The translations under genes and the position numbers were made by a program. The notes beneath the pieces are model-generated. The model was not told the DNA's origin. It was given only the letters and a program-made list of their open reading frames with translations, and did no database searches. A DNA stretch of 64,000 nucleotides from NCBI RefSeq assembly GCF_003730275.1, contig NZ_QTTA01000024.1, positions 1-64,000 on the forward strand, in the 5' to 3' direction. This document shows, piece by piece, positions 38,848 through 51,162 of the stretch. The stretch comes from Brevundimonas halotolerans (GTDB lineage Bacteria; Pseudomonadota; Alphaproteobacteria; Caulobacterales; Caulobacteraceae). Every line of letters starts with the position of its first letter. Positions within the stretch are counted from its first letter, which is position 1.

Positions 38848-40578
38848 TCAGACGCTGGGGGTGACGAAGGTCATGCGGACACGGGTACCGCGCGGCGAGG
38901 CCGCCAGCACCTCGGTTGACCCTCGCAGCTGTTTGGCAAAGGCCGTCATCAGGGTGCGCCCTACGCCGACCGGGTCGGCTTCCGACAGGCCGGGACCGTC
39001 GTCCTCGACCTCCAGCACGCTGGTCTCGCCATCGACCGTGAAGCGGACGGTCAGGGTGCCACCCTTCTCCGCAAGCGCATGCTTCAGCGCGTTCGAGATC
39101 GCCTCGACCAGCCACAGGGCCATGGGGGCCAGCTTGTCAGGGTCCATGATCAGGCTGTCGGCCTCGACCCGGCTTGAGACCGCCGGCCCGCGCCCGGCCT
39201 CGCTGGCGACCAGCTGACCGACCAGATCGTGCAGGAAGACCGCTGCGTCGGCGTGGCGGATGTCGTCGCTCTGGTAGAGGGTCCGATAGATCAGGGCCAG
39301 CGCCGAGATACGCTGTCGCGTATCGCCCAGCGCCATCTTTGCCGCGTCATCGCTGAGCGCCCTCTGCTGTAGGCTGAGCAGCGACGAAATGATCTGAAGG
39401 TTGTTCTTCACCCGGTGGTGGATCTCGCGCATCAGCACGTCTTTTTCGGCCAGACTGTCCAGCAGCGACTGGTCGCGAATCGACACGGCCTCGGCCAGTC
39501 CGTCCAACGTCTCGGCCAGCACCCGGATTTCGGTCGGCGCATTGACGGCCTGGACGGGGCGGACTGTGAAACGGCCCCGGGTATAGAGGGCGGCGATACG
39601 CTCCAGATAATCCAGCCAGCGCACCACCACGCGCTCGGTGACAAGGATCACGGCGACAAAGGCTGTCATCCAGGCGGCGAGCGGCAGTAGAATCGAGCCG
39701 ATCGGGTTCAGACGCGCCCAGGACAGCAGGCCGGGTGAGGGCGCGGCCAGCAGCACATAGACATCCTGGCCCGACATGGCCGAACCGGCATAGGCTCGCC
39801 GCTCTCCCCCGCTGTCGCGGGCCTCCAGCACCCGGTCGTCGCCGGCCCGCATTTCCTGGAACCACGTTGCCAGCCTGCCCCCGGGCTCCATGTCAAAGGC
39901 GGCCGGATCGGTGGCCACCAGAATCTGGCCTTCGCTATCCACAAGCGCCGCTTCTGACCCTTCCGGCAAGGCGGGGTCGCGGGTGTCGGGCTGGAGGGAT
40001 TCAAGCGGAATGACAGCCGCCATGGCGCCGTCAAAGCGTCCCATGGGGCGCTCGACCCGAAGGCCCGTCACCAGAGCCGGAAAGTCGCGCTGGGCCCGCG
40101 ACACGACCCAGTCGCTGCCAGCCCGCAGGCGGACGAACCAGCCGCGTTGGGTGACGTCTACGCCGCGCAGTTCGCCAGCGCTGCAGACCACCTGACCAGT
40201 AGCGGTGTAGCGCACGATAGTTGAATAGCCGTCCAGCCGCTCCAGAAGTGCGCCCAGCCGCTCCTCACAGAAAGGAGAGCTGCCCTCAAATCTCAGAGCC
40301 TGAAGGAGAGTTGCGGCGCCCTCCAGCCGCGTGCGGGCGCCGACAGCGCTGCGTTCAGCGGCCAGTTGCAGATCGACCCGGCGCTCCTCGGCCTGCTCGC
40401 GAAAGTCCGCATCGACCTGCAAGGCGATCAGTACCAGAAAGGGCGCGAGGGCCAGAGCCATGGCCATGCCCAGACGGAACCGGATTCCTTGAAATTTAGC
40501 GCGTTTCAGTCCACGCCCGCCCGGGCGTCCGAAGGAACGGCCCAGGTGACGGCCAAGCGCGCGGCCCAGCCGTCCCAT
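38848..40578 (-). CDS. phyK: PhyK-type sensor histidine kinase of the general stress response
   Basis: 576 residues. A basic N-terminal tail, TM1 (about 37-54), a periplasmic sensor domain (about 55-295) and TM2 (about 296-315), then an HisKA_2 dimerisation domain with E-I-H-H-R-V-K-N-N (phospho-His, probably H388) and an HATPase domain (D-D-G-P-G-L, T-R-V-R-M-T-F). This is the class of kinase that phosphorylates PhyR. The start is 1 base after the ecfG stop, so nepR-ecfG-phyK form one operon. Confidence 0.88.
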   Translation of the reverse strand: MGRLGRALGRHLGRSFGRPGGRGLKRAKFQGIRFRLGMAMALALAPFLVLIALQVDADFREQAEERRVDLQLAAERSAVGARTRLEGAATLLQALRFEGSSPFCEERLGALLERLDGYSTIVRYTATGQVVCSAGELRGVDVTQRGWFVRLRAGSDWVVSRAQRDFPALVTGLRVERPMGRFDGAMAAVIPLESLQPDTRDPALPEGSEAALVDSEGQILVATDPAAFDMEPGGRLATWFQEMRAGDDRVLEARDSGGERRAYAGSAMSGQDVYVLLAAPSPGLLSWARLNPIGSILLPLAAWMTAFVAVILVTERVVVRWLDYLERIAALYTRGRFTVRPVQAVNAPTEIRVLAETLDGLAEAVSIRDQSLLDSLAEKDVLMREIHHRVKNNLQIISSLLSLQQRALSDDAAKMALGDTRQRISALALIYRTLYQSDDIRHADAAVFLHDLVGQLVASEAGRGPAVSSRVEADSLIMDPDKLAPMALWLVEAISNALKHALAEKGGTLTVRFTVDGETSVLEVEDDGPGLSEADPVGVGRTLMTAFAKQLRGSTEVLAASPRGTRVRMTFVTPSV

Positions 40579-40579
40579 C

Positions 40580-41182
40580 TCAGGTGCTGTAGCCGCCGCT
40601 CAGACGGTCCGCGGCCCCGAGGATCGAGGCCATGGCATCGCCGGCGGCCTTGCCGTCGCGGTCATAGCCGCCGCTTTCCAGAACGGCGAGCAACGCCTTG
40701 CGGGCGCGACTGACCCGGCTTTTGACCGTGCCGACGGCGCAGTCACAGATGGCAGCCGCTTCCTCATAGGCAAAGCCCCCGGCGCCGACCAGAATCAGCG
40801 CCTCGCGCTGCTCTTCGGGCAGAGAGGCCAGCGCCAGCCGCAGTTCGTCCAGCGCGACCGGGGCCTCGGGATTGTCGACGGCGACCAGCGTGCGCTCTGC
40901 TGCTTCCTGATCCAGCTGCGACTGGCGCCACGACCGGCGCTTGTCCGAATAGAACTGGTTGCGCAGGATCATGAAGGTCCAGGCCTTCATGTTGGTCCCC
41001 ATCTGGAAGCTGGCCCGCGCATCCCACGCCTTGACCATGGCGTCCTGCGCCAGATCGTCGGCCGCGGTGGCGTCGCCGGTCAGCGTCCGGGCAAAGGCGC
41101 GCAGGTGCGGGATCAGGGCGACCAGCTCGACCTTGAACGCCTTGTCATCGGTCGAAGGGGGCTTGGGGGCAGCACCGCTCAT
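40580..41182 (-). CDS. ecfG: ECF sigma factor EcfG (SigT) of the general stress response
   Basis: 200 residues. Sigma2 (about 22-88: L-R-A-F-A-R-T-L-T-G-D, D-D-L-A-Q-D-A-M-V-K-A-W, W-T-F-M-I-L-R-N-Q-F) and sigma4 (about 120-172: L-P-E-E-Q-R-E-A-L-I-L-V, A-Y-E-E-A-A-A-I-C-D-C-A-V-G-T-V-K-S-R-V-S-R-A). Held by NepR and released when PhyR is phosphorylated. It overlaps nepR by 4 bases. Confidence 0.92.
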   Translation of the reverse strand: MSGAAPKPPSTDDKAFKVELVALIPHLRAFARTLTGDATAADDLAQDAMVKAWDARASFQMGTNMKAWTFMILRNQFYSDKRRSWRQSQLDQEAAERTLVAVDNPEAPVALDELRLALASLPEEQREALILVGAGGFAYEEAAAICDCAVGTVKSRVSRARKALLAVLESGGYDRDGKAAGDAMASILGAADRLSGGYST

Positions 41183-41379
41183 TCGCCACCTTCGCCCGAC
41201 GCGCGGCTGTCCGCACGGCGCAGGATGTCGAGAAATTCGTCGGGGACCGGTTCATTGACCACCTCGTCGAAAATGTGCCGCAGCTTGACCCCGATGGCCT
41301 GCTGGCGAAGCCGTGCCTCTTCCAGATCTTCGGACCCGAGGTCCTCGATCGGCTGGCCGGGTTTGGATTTTTCAGTCAT
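41179..41379 (-). CDS. nepR: Anti-sigma factor NepR
   Basis: 66 residues from M-T-E-K-S-K-P-G-Q. The core L-R-Q-Q-A-I-G-V-K-L-R-H-I-F-D-E-V-V-N-E-P-V-P-D-E-F-L-D-I-L is the NepR helical signature; it binds either EcfG or PhyR's sigma-like domain. A longer in-frame start at 41475 would extend across its promoter and is rejected. Confidence 0.92.
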   Translation of the reverse strand: MTEKSKPGQPIEDLGSEDLEEARLRQQAIGVKLRHIFDEVVNEPVPDEFLDILRRADSRASGEGGE

Positions 41380-41415: not shown

Positions 41416-41440
41416 AACGTCACCTTGCGCTGCGGGTTCC
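41416..41440 (-). promoter_or_regulatory. EcfG-dependent promoter of nepR-ecfG-phyK
   Basis: Minus strand: GGAAC (41440-41436), 16 bases, CGTT (41419-41416), an exact match to the EcfG consensus. It lies 37 bases before the nepR ATG. It implies autoregulation of the stress sigma factor. Confidence 0.88.
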
Positions 41441-41480: not shown

Positions 41481-41505
41481 GGAACCTTGGCTGTTAAGCG
41501 ACGTT
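41481..41505 (+). promoter_or_regulatory. EcfG-dependent promoter of phyR
   Basis: GGAAC (41481-41485), 16 bases, CGTT (41502-41505), again an exact match. It lies 71 bases before the phyR ATG. With the opposite promoter at 41416-41440 the two -35 boxes are about 40 bases apart, so both arms of the switch share the same sigma factor. Confidence 0.88.
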
Positions 41506-41576: not shown

Positions 41577-42368
41577 ATGAGTCTGCTTGCCAGGTTGGCC
41601 CCTCACCTTCCGTATGTCCGCCGTTACGCCCGTGCCCTGACCGGCGACCAGACCACCGGGGACAACTATGTACGGGTCGCGCTGGAGGCCCTCGCGGCCG
41701 GCGAGCAGCAGCTGTCCCAGGACATGACGCCGCGCGTCGCGCTCTATCACGTGTTCCACACCATCTGGGCCTCGACCGGGGCCCGGCTGGAAGGTCGCCC
41801 CGACGTTGAGAGCGGAGACGAAGCCTCGCGTCGGCTGATGCGTATCTCGCCGCGCTCGCGCCAGGCCTTTCTGCTGACCGCGCTCGAGGGCTTCACGCCG
41901 TCCGAGACCGCGCAAATTCTGGGCTCCGATGTGCCCTCGGTCGAATCGCTGATCAGCGAGGCCCAGTCCGACATCGATGCCGAGCTGGCGACCGACGTGC
42001 TGATCATCGAGGACGAGGCCATCATCTCGGCCGACATCGAAAATCTGGTCAAGGATCTGGGCCACCGGGTCACGGCCACAGCCACCACCCATGACGAGGC
42101 CGTTGATGCCGTCTCGCGGCACAAGCCGGGTCTGGTGCTGGCCGACATCCAGCTGGCCGACGGTTCGTCCGGGATCGATGCGGTCAAGGATATCCTGAAG
42201 GCCATCGATGTGCCGGTGATCTTCATCACCGCCTTCCCGGAGCGCCTGCTGACCGGCGAGCGGCCCGAGCCGACCTTCCTGATCACCAAGCCGTTCCAGC
42301 CGGAAACGGTCAAGGCCGCCATCAGCCAGGCGCTGTTCTTCCATCCGGGCCGCCGCGAGATCGCCTGA
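41577..42368 (+). CDS. phyR: PhyR response regulator (anti-anti-sigma factor)
   Basis: 263 residues from M-S-L-L-A-R-L. N-terminal sigma-like domain (about 1-130), which mimics EcfG and captures NepR, then a receiver domain (about 138-255) with acidic pocket I-I-E-D-E and phospho-acceptor D190 in L-V-L-A-D-I-Q-L-A, and the conserved Lys in F-L-I-T-K-P-F. Phosphorylation frees the NepR-binding face. An in-frame upstream start at 41463 overlaps the promoter and is rejected. Confidence 0.93.
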   Translation: MSLLARLAPHLPYVRRYARALTGDQTTGDNYVRVALEALAAGEQQLSQDMTPRVALYHVFHTIWASTGARLEGRPDVESGDEASRRLMRISPRSRQAFLLTALEGFTPSETAQILGSDVPSVESLISEAQSDIDAELATDVLIIEDEAIISADIENLVKDLGHRVTATATTHDEAVDAVSRHKPGLVLADIQLADGSSGIDAVKDILKAIDVPVIFITAFPERLLTGERPEPTFLITKPFQPETVKAAISQALFFHPGRREIA

Positions 42369-42388
42369 CGAATTTTTCACCCGGCGCG

Positions 42389-42413
42389 GGAACCGGGGTC
42401 TTCGCTCTGCATT
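42389..42413 (+). promoter_or_regulatory. EcfG-like promoter of the intergenic sRNA
   Basis: GGAAC (42389-42393), 16 bases, CATT (42410-42413). Perfect -35 and spacing; the -10 differs by one base from CGTT. A start near 42420 would place the first hairpin at the 5' end of the RNA. Confidence 0.55.
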
Positions 42414-42419
42414 CTTGAT

Positions 42420-42537
42420 ATGCGGAGGCAGCGACGCCCCCCCGACAATGACCGGTTCACTCCGGTCAGCTGCCTCCGCGCCTCATCTCGATGATGCCTT
42501 TGAAGGCGGACCGTTTGCGGTCCGCCTTCATTTTTTT
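42420..42537 (+). ncRNA. Candidate sRNA downstream of phyR, GsrN-like
   Basis: About 118 bases with three-part structure: GCGGAGGCAGC (42422-42432) pairs perfectly with GCTGCCTCCGC (42469-42479); inside, a 16-base strand with seven C in a row (42437-42443), and a hairpin TGACCGG/CCGGTCA (42449-42468); then a strong terminator. No coding capacity is evident. In Caulobacter, the SigT-controlled sRNA GsrN acts through a C-rich loop. Features match, and the location next to phyR supports it, but homology was not tested. Confidence 0.6.
42501..42537 (+). terminator. Strong Rho-independent terminator
   Basis: Perfect 13-bp stem, TGAAGGCGGACCG / CGGTCCGCCTTCA, with a TTTG loop, then seven T. It is 130 bases past the phyR stop and ends the sRNA candidate. 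Confidence 0.95.
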
Positions 42538-42633
42538 GTGCCCATATCGGCCCTGCCCCTCGACAAGCTGTGCCCCTCGGCCATGATGTCGGTCCATAAA
42601 GAAAACGCATAGCGAGACATCAGGAGGTCGATC

Positions 42634-43650
42634 ATGACGCGCACCAATCGCCAATGGGTTCTTCGCCGCCGGCCGCAGGGCCTGATCCAGGACGGCGACC
42701 TTGAACTGGTTGAAAGCCCCGTCGCAGACCCCGGTGATGGCGAGGTTCTGGTCCGCACCATCTATCTGTCGCTGGACCCGACCAACCGCACATGGATGAA
42801 CGACTCCGAGGGCTATCTGCCGCCCGTCGGTCTGGGCGACGTCATGCGGGGTCTGACTCTGGGCGTGGTCGAGGCGACCCGCTCGGACCGCTTCAAGGAA
42901 GGCGATCTGGTTATGCCCATGTCGGGCGGCTGGGCCGACTATGCTGTCGTTCCCGACAGCCAGCTGCGTCCTGTGCATCGCTTCCCCGGTCTGCCGCTGA
43001 CGGCCAATCTGTCGGTGCTGGGCATGACCGGCCTGACCGCCTGGGCGGGCGTCACCGATGTCCTGCGGCCCGAGCCCGGCCAGACCATGGTCATCTCGGC
43101 TGCGGCCGGCGCCGTCGGCTCGATTGCCGGCCAGATCGCCAAACAGAAGGGCGCCCGCGTGATCGGCATCGCCGGGGGCGCCGACAAGGGCCGCTGGCTG
43201 ACCGAGGAACTCGGCTTCGACGCCGCCATCGACTACAAGAATGAGGATGTGGGCGAGGCGCTGGACCGTCTGGCCCCGGACGGCATCGACCTCAATTTCG
43301 AGAACGTCGGCGGCGACATCATGATCGCGGTCTGGAACCGGCTGAACACCCACGCGCGCATGGCCGTGTGCGGCCTGATCTCGGCCTATAACGCCACGCG
43401 CATGCCGCCCTCGCCGAACTTCTCGCGGATCATCACCCACCGGCTGGAGGTGCGCGGCTTCCTCGTGCTCGACTATGCCCCTCGCGCGCGCGAGATGGTG
43501 GCCGAGGTCGGGCCCTGGCTGGCCGACGGGCGGGTGAAGTGGAAGGTCCACGTCGATCACGGGCTGGAAGGCGCCGTCCAGTCGCTCAACCGCTTGTTCA
43601 CCGGCGATCATGACGGCAAACTGCTGGTGCGTGTCTCCGAAGAGCCGTAG
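42634..43650 (+). CDS. NADP-dependent oxidoreductase, medium-chain (CurA/LTB4DH-like)
   Basis: 338 residues. N-terminal W-V-L-R-R-R-P-Q-G, R-T-I-Y-L-S-L-D-P-T-N-R-T-W-M-N and the NADP fold A-A-A-G-A-V-G-S-I-A-G-Q place it in the zinc-free MDR group of alkenal/curcumin reductases. It reduces conjugated double bonds of reactive aldehydes or ketones. RBS AGGAGG precedes the ATG. It sits between the stress island and a MaoC-like gene; not itself evidently under the EcfG promoter. Confidence 0.85.
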   Translation: MTRTNRQWVLRRRPQGLIQDGDLELVESPVADPGDGEVLVRTIYLSLDPTNRTWMNDSEGYLPPVGLGDVMRGLTLGVVEATRSDRFKEGDLVMPMSGGWADYAVVPDSQLRPVHRFPGLPLTANLSVLGMTGLTAWAGVTDVLRPEPGQTMVISAAAGAVGSIAGQIAKQKGARVIGIAGGADKGRWLTEELGFDAAIDYKNEDVGEALDRLAPDGIDLNFENVGGDIMIAVWNRLNTHARMAVCGLISAYNATRMPPSPNFSRIITHRLEVRGFLVLDYAPRAREMVAEVGPWLADGRVKWKVHVDHGLEGAVQSLNRLFTGDHDGKLLVRVSEEP

Positions 43651-43680: not shown

Positions 43681-44106
43681 ATGAGCGAAGCCGAGGCGAC
43701 CGACCCCTTCCGGGTCTGTTTCGAGGACCTGTCGGTGGGTCAGGTCATACCGCTGGGTGCCTGCACGGTGGACGCCGAGTCCCTGAGCGGCTTCGTTGCC
43801 ACGTTCGCGCCCCGCTGGCCGGTTGAGGCCGGCGCCCCTCCGGCCATGGTCTATGCCCTGTGGACGCGGCTGTTCGCGGAAAAGTCCAGCCACTGGGCCC
43901 AGACCAAGGTGCTGGCCGTCGATGGCCTGCGCTATATGCGTGATCCGCCGGCGGGTGAGCTGCTGCGCGGCCGCATGACCGTCATGGGCAAGGACCCGGT
44001 GGGCGACGACAAGGGCATTGTCATCGCCCAGCACGACCTGCTGGACGAGGGCGGGCGGCTGGTCTTTTCCTGCCTGACCCGCGCCCTGTTTACCCGCCGC
44101 GCCTGA
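43681..44106 (+). CDS. MaoC-like hotdog-fold protein, catalytic motif not visible
   Basis: 141 residues. F-E-D-L-S-V-G-Q-V-I-P-L-G at the N-terminus is the MaoC/R-specific hydratase opening. The usual D-x-x-x-x-H active-site helix is not recognisable (here A-P-R-W-P-V-E-A-G-A-P-P-A). So it may be a non-enzymatic or altered member. It lies 30 bases after the oxidoreductase, likely the same transcript. Confidence 0.6.
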   Translation: MSEAEATDPFRVCFEDLSVGQVIPLGACTVDAESLSGFVATFAPRWPVEAGAPPAMVYALWTRLFAEKSSHWAQTKVLAVDGLRYMRDPPAGELLRGRMTVMGKDPVGDDKGIVIAQHDLLDEGGRLVFSCLTRALFTRRA

Positions 44107-51002: not shown

Positions 51003-51065
51003 GGGCTTGTCATAGCCCGTGACGCGATCCCGGGCGAGGCCGGATGACGGTTTTGCTGAGGGGGA

Positions 51066-51158
51066 AAAGGTGGAGACCGCGACCCGAAGGGGAATTCGTT
51101 GTGGCTGCTGCCTTCCGGCCCTGACCAGTTTGGCGAAGCCTTCGCCCGCGATCTCCAC
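51066..51158 (-). ncRNA. ffs: 4.5S SRP RNA
   Basis: Minus strand carries the conserved loop CTGGTCAGGGCCGGAAGGCA followed by GCAGCCAC (51129-51102), the SRP domain IV signature that binds Ffh. The ends pair: GTGGAGA (51158-51152) with TCTCCAC (51076-51070), giving a hairpin of about 93 bases. Position upstream of dnaX is typical. The longer ORF through here is a shadow. Confidence 0.9.
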
Positions 51159-51162
51159 GCCC

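Follow-up and report, generated by a model that had tools for sequence, protein, structure and literature searches.

A gsrN-type small RNA gene after phyR in Brevundimonas halotolerans, with a recoded 5′ half in some related species

RESULTS

We analysed a stretch of 64,000 nucleotides of Brevundimonas halotolerans DNA (hereafter the window) and found that positions 42389–42537 are, judged by their sequence, the Brevundimonas ortholog of gsrN, of the standard type and in its usual place after phyR. We consider it very probable that this stretch is a gsrN gene, specifying a stress RNA that would be driven by EcfG and would pair with its targets through a run of C residues. The assignment stands on the sequence, its predicted structure, covariation, position and the conservation of the promoter. 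Neither the kind of RNA nor its location inside the regulator island is new, as both were published in 2018, Brevundimonas included, in the text of Tien et al. (PMC5869019). The new part, of modest extra interest, is that in some related species the 5′ half is recoded and the other half is kept.

The RNA lies in the core regulator island

The locus contains the following features:

38848–40578, − strand: HisKA_2/HWE sensor kinase (Pfam), beside ecfG
40580–41182, − strand: ecfG sigma factor (PF04542, PF08281; Pfam)
41179–41379, − strand: nepR anti-sigma factor (PF18557)
41416–41440, − strand: EcfG-type promoter GGAAC-N16-CGTT upstream of nepR-ecfG (motif scan)
41481–41505, + strand: EcfG-type promoter GGAAC-N16-CGTT upstream of phyR (motif scan)
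41577–42368, + strand: phyR (PF22029, PF22233, PF00072)
42389–42413, + strand: EcfG-type promoter GGAAC-N16-CATT of the RNA (motif scan)
42420–42537, + strand: gsrN-type small RNA gene (RF01529 at 42424–42526; start predicted from the promoter position)
42422–42432, + strand: outer stem, 5′ arm (fold, covariation)
42437–42443, + strand: C7 run, presumed seed, in the exposed loop 42433–42448
42449–42468, + strand: inner hairpin of 7 bp (42449–42455 paired with 42462–42468)
42469–42479, + strand: outer stem, 3′ arm (fold, covariation)
42480–42497, + strand: linker with a small hairpin, containing TCTCGATG (fold, congener alignment)
42501–42537, + strand: intrinsic terminator, 13 bp and T7, possibly common to phyR (fold, terminator scan)
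42634–43650, + strand: medium-chain dehydrogenase (PF16884, PF00107), downstream of the RNA

The gene at 40580–41182 was named ecfG because it adjoins nepR and phyR. A first-pass annotation, made from the sequence alone, had placed the RNA inside the core regulator island, between phyR and an ‘MDR gene’. Its placement holds, with phyR, nepR and ecfG adjoining by Pfam and the position conserved in relatives, and what it called the ‘MDR gene’ encodes a medium-chain dehydrogenase/reductase (PF16884, PF00107). Such a location near ecfG/nepR/phyR is typical of GsrN, though not obligatory, and the window RNA has it.

Three further observations concern the surroundings. The sensor kinase on the − strand (38848–40578) has a Cache domain slightly below the cut-off and is a candidate PhyR kinase. 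A 141-aa open reading frame (43681–44106, + strand), with no Pfam match at E 0.001, lies immediately 3′ of the dehydrogenase gene. A bacterial small SRP RNA (RF00169, 64.5 bits) was found at 51065–51160 on the − strand.

Identity and distribution of the RNA

The covariance search that the first-pass annotation had proposed gave a full-length match (1–106) to RF01529 (CC3552) at 42424–42526. It scored 65.8 bits, above the gathering score of 50, and no second match was found in the genome at E 0.001. Taken with the covarying stems and the conserved position, this match bears out the assignment to GsrN made there. Of 14 control genomes, Caulobacter vibrioides was the sole one with an RF01529 match above the cut-off. 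Our own model, R1, matched 42422–42539 with 104.8 bits, the window RNA being among the 30 sequences from which R1 was built.

How the Rfam family relates to the published RNA can be read from the loops. GUCGGGGGGCGUC and AAGUCGGGGGGCG, printed as target sites of C. crescentus GsrN in the text of Tien et al. (2018, PMC5869019), have exact reverse complements in GACGCCCCCCGAC and CGCCCCCCGACUU, loop sequences seen in members from Caulobacter such as L060 and L075. Because the Caulobacter loops complement the printed target sites, we infer CC3552 to be the same RNA as GsrN; a publication naming both was not found in our literature search.

With stricter filters, under which weak matches are lost, RF01529 was present in 32 of 61 genomes of relatives (32 of 37 in the same genus, own genome included, and 0 of 24 in other families of the order), in 84 of 149 genomes and 17 of 22 genera across the family, and in 2 of 289 genomes across the class, which belong to the window's genus. 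Second RF01529 matches in two genomes (G416 and G485, 35 bits) were rejected, since no phyR adjoins either and they look like chance.

A further set of at least 120 stretches (L057–L176) was gathered by a 5′-loop pattern, so that conservation of the 5′ part in it is partly by construction. R1 found the RNA in 97 of the first 100 of these stretches (L057–L156; 101 matches, with 4 weaker second matches on the opposite strand dropped); it was absent in three, two Halomonas and one Microbacteriaceae. A later R1 search gave 52 matches, of which 20 were second matches, 19 of them lying across the true match on the opposite strand. The tallies by genus given here and below comprise 79 of the 97 RNA-bearing loci, those with a named genus (27 Brevundimonas, 24 Caulobacter and 28 Phenylobacterium); the 18 with vaguer titles were left out, and the 27 Brevundimonas records overlap in part with the 30 copies in the alignment described below. 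When the loci listed are limited to those with at least 2 kb upstream, phyR precedes the RNA on its strand in 16 of 17 loci of Brevundimonas, in all 16 of Caulobacter and in all 20 of Phenylobacterium; with any flank, the counts among the loci listed are 23 of 27, 20 of 24 and 24 of 28, respectively.

katG as a possible target

In C. crescentus, the C-rich loop of GsrN pairs with the first seven bases of the katG mRNA (text of PMC5869019). The window's own genome also contains katG. As a target in this genome, katG, which the first-pass annotation had suggested, is not supported by the sequence: the best duplex of its leader with the loop was no better than those of shuffled leaders (245 of 300 were as good), in a test that is weak on Caulobacter too. 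When 17 same-genus katG leaders were considered, own included (the 18th locus, L203, was set aside, as the sequence upstream of it reads as coding), the duplexes were mostly no better than dinucleotide shuffles, the median fraction as good being 0.63 for these and 0.53 for 19 Caulobacter leaders. The lowest shuffle counts were 19, 27, 32 and 39 of 300 (L182, L212, L216 and L213, respectively).

It is therefore worth weighing whether the RNA is a GsrN ortholog by descent that lacks katG control and in Brevundimonas has other G-rich targets or serves as a sponge, a serious alternative that we place somewhat below the point of being probable. It gains from the finding that the GUCGGGG site was the best duplex in 0 of the 17 same-genus leaders (own included), with GTCGGGG present in 3 of the 19 Caulobacter leaders, and loses from the fact that the starts of katG transcription are not mapped and that the duplex test did not separate even the Caulobacter leaders, at their median of 0.53, from shuffles. 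Exact complements of ten loop bases numbered 6 in the own genome (one being the gene itself) versus 9 for the reversed control, and nothing among the genes near them was persuasive as a target.

The promoter and the relation to phyR

The EcfG-type promoter GGAAC-N16-CATT claimed by the first-pass annotation is present directly upstream of the RNA (42389–42413), with a −10 one base off CGTT, the −10 given for C. crescentus in the text of Tien et al. (2018, PMC5869019). Scanning the full 64 kb for GGAAC-N15-17-C(A/G)TT gave three matches (upstream of nepR-ecfG, phyR and the RNA), all in the island. Chance would yield a mean of 2.01 matches of this loose pattern in 64 kb, and at least three were reached in 31 of 100 shuffles. 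Thus the three matches are within chance, and the promoter call rests on position and conservation rather than on the count. The strict form used in relatives (GGAAC-N14-18-C[AG]TT) stands 5′ of 27 of 30 congener copies, the window's own among them (CGTT in 23, CATT in 4). Among the loci listed, it precedes 23 of the 27 named copies from Brevundimonas and 23 of the 24 from Caulobacter. It occurred in 0 of 27 listed Phenylobacterium loci (one further locus has too little flank). Twelve of these 27 were read (L061, L063, L064, L067, L069, L074 and others) and have GGAAC with an NGTT −10 in which N is not C, perhaps a genus-specific preference of EcfG.

The RNA start is within 57–60 bases of the phyR end in the window and in three near relatives, and in the gap between them (42366–42420) the terminator scan found one weak terminator-like hairpin (6 pairs, 42394–42409), which overlaps the promoter. 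Both observations would also suit a unit that is mainly the 3′ UTR and terminator of phyR, the RNA being a by-product of phyR mRNA processing. We regard this as improbable, as those 27 of 30 congener copies have an EcfG-type promoter in front of the RNA, the distance from phyR to the RNA is 132–1391 bases in most relatives measured, and the conservation of the loop and linker exceeds the needs of a terminator. For a gsrN gene with its own promoter, read-through from phyR may still be a second source of the RNA, because the gap hairpin is weak.

Predicted structure and covariation

The fold of 42420–42537 has a predicted energy of −64.9 kcal/mol, compared with a mean of −35.69 for shuffled sequences (sd 3.6, z −8.11; 0 of 200 shuffles were as stable). 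Folding reproduced the layout described in the first-pass annotation (an 11-bp outer stem, C7 and a 7-bp hairpin), and its 13-bp terminator with seven T was recovered both by the fold and by the terminator scan. In the predicted fold the 11 bp of the outer stem join 42422–42432 with 42469–42479, the C7 run sits in a 16-base strand and is unpaired in both the minimum-energy and the centroid fold, and the terminator (42501–42530) has 13 pairs and a loop of 4, followed by T7 (42531–42537). A 5′ stem enclosing an unpaired C-rich loop is a feature of GsrN, and each of the 30 aligned congener copies has a C run of at least 6.

These 30 copies, the window RNA included, were aligned with MAFFT (alignment A1). 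Pairing was kept in 97.5% of 839 cells, and 12 of 28 pairs had changes on both sides (48 such cells); each of these three values was reached by 0 of 500 shuffles, and the number of further pair types by 8 of 500. Sliding the partners lowered the pairing to 25–58%. The test favours the structure, because the structure was derived from A1 itself. Covariation across the 30 congeners supports the stems. The signal comes mostly from the inner hairpin, in which 6 of 7 pairs changed on both sides, and from the terminator; the outer stem and linker hairpin are mostly invariant (11 of 16 pairs never vary), and TCTCGATG in the linker is identical in 30 of 30 copies. The C run measures 6, 7, 8 or 10 in A1. 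Among the loci listed, it is 7 in 18, 6 in 8 and 5 in 1 of the 27 named Brevundimonas, 8 in 6, 7 in 16 and 6 in 2 of the 24 Caulobacter, and 8 in 26 and 7 in 2 of the 28 Phenylobacterium.

Stems that covary and do not code are a further GsrN feature found here (the 12 of 28 double-change pairs). Conservation following a protein frame, which the first-pass annotation had named as the result that would speak against an RNA, found no support, and a short protein, for instance from the open 65-aa frame 42415–42612, is next to inconceivable, as the changes follow the stems and, with C runs of differing length and variable hairpin lengths, the frame is not kept in the 30 copies.

Natural variants of the 5′ module

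Seven genomes of the same genus that had given no RF01529 match at E 0.001 (G006, G030, G462, G023, G443, G013 and G005) were re-examined. In G006, G030 and G462, a unit with an EcfG promoter, the linker CCTCATTCTCGATGATG and a terminator lies between phyR and the dehydrogenase, and its 5′ module is recoded, with an outer stem of CGAGGGC/GCCCTCG or near it and a C4–C5 loop. In G023 and G443 (loci L283 and L284) the unit after phyR keeps the promoter, linker motif and terminator, and no C-rich loop was seen, an apparent loss or replacement of the seed; R1 finds these two units weakly (32.7 and 26.1 bits), and a dehydrogenase was not found near them within the available flank. G013 has a terminator-like stretch after phyR, with no promoter match, and in G005, a genome 78% complete, phyR was not found. 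Two other genomes (G421 and G429) kept the C-rich 5′ module and lost the linker, with RF01529 below the gathering score.

We also searched the 131 genomes of the genus with a pattern blind to the 5′ module (promoter, gap and TCTCGATGATG). It matched 93 of them, with zero for the reversed control among the matches listed. Classed by their first 80 letters, 80 of the 93 strings look standard (G022, with four C, among them), 10 are of the recoded type (G006, G030, G462, G490, G491, G496, G501, G502, G516 and G528), 2 lack the C run (G023 and G443) and 1 is apparently unrelated (G557). The 38 genomes with no pattern match include standard copies one base off in the linker (G028, G015 and G381) or in the −10 (G035, G014 and G012).

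In a tree of the dehydrogenase (46 rows), eight recoded copies form one clade with support 98/95; G516 and G528 were not sampled, and G023, G443, G421 and G429 could not be placed. Recoding of the 5′ module therefore looks like a single event. Within the clade all 8 copies share the linker CCTCATTCTCGATGATGCG, and 3 of 27 predicted pairs changed on both sides. These recoded copies of one Brevundimonas clade lie after phyR at loci L253, L251, L255, L297, L298, L304, L312 and L313.

The natural variants point to an outer stem of free sequence, to a C run that recoded copies retain and to a separate constraint on the 3′ module in Brevundimonas. A bolder reading, possible but on balance doubtful, is that the two halves of GsrN are separate parts that evolve independently of each other. 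What stays constant in Brevundimonas would be the promoter and the 3′ module (the linker around UCUCGAUGAUG and the terminator), the latter with a function of its own as an Hfq/RNase platform or second seed. The 5′ C-rich module would serve as a cassette for targeting that can be exchanged: one clade would have recoded it once, two genomes would have replaced it by a structure with no C-rich loop, and two others would have kept it without the linker. According to the text of PMC5869019, C. crescentus GsrN is cut at about position 53 to give a 5′ isoform of 51–54 nt and, in contrast to a constraint on the 3′ module, peroxide survival in that species was restored by an allele lacking the 3′ part. 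Because the linker starts near this cut (with the numbering unmapped between the two RNAs), a role in processing or Hfq binding is the simplest guess for it. Among the loci listed, the linker is much less conserved in Caulobacter, which counts against a family-wide role. Modularity of GsrN was not found in the text of the open-licence papers searched, figures aside.

DISCUSSION

From the promoter motifs and the known pathway, nepR-ecfG, phyR and the RNA would share EcfG control. Under stress, PhyR would sequester NepR and free EcfG, which would transcribe all three from like promoters within about 1 kb. The resulting RNA, of roughly 118 nt, would consist of a 5′ module, in which the outer stem holds the C-rich strand open for G-rich mRNA sites, and a 3′ module of linker hairpin and terminator. 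By analogy with C. crescentus GsrN, the C run may pair with targets and alter their translation or stability, and the RNA may be cleaved near the base of the outer stem. Transcription, sigma dependence, targets and processing of the window RNA are thus all inferred. The sequence and covariation evidence adds to the case that, in Brevundimonas, the general stress response of alphaproteobacteria has its post-transcriptional arm in the core regulator island, and GsrN is therefore testable outside C. crescentus. The recoded and C-less variants are a ready set for asking where in GsrN target recognition resides and what role the linker has.

Comparison with known systems

In C. crescentus, gsrN (ccna_R0081) specifies an RNA of ∼100 nt and requires sigT, and homologs were described in Caulobacter, Brevundimonas and Phenylobacterium, typically near ecfG/nepR/phyR with C. 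crescentus as the exception (text of Tien, Fiebig and Crosson 2018, PMC5869019). The window RNA resembles it in its EcfG/SigT-type promoter, length of roughly 100 nt, 5′ stem with an exposed C-rich loop, intrinsic terminator and occurrence in Caulobacteraceae. It differs from the RNA described in that text in adjoining phyR, whereas C. crescentus GsrN is distal from it, in having seven rather than six C, in its −10 (CATT versus CGTT) and in the absence of a clear katG site in its genome. After the C run it reads GACAAT, compared with GACTTGAG in the consensus. Like Rfam RF01529 (CC3552), it matches over the full length above the gathering score, although its 65.8 bits are below most congeners (29th of 32; best 118.9). 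The putative GsrN-like RNAs of Rhizobiaceae are likewise described as lying near the general stress response locus with an EcfG-type promoter (text of PMC5869019); the RF01529 matches among the 289 class genomes were those 2 of the window's own genus.
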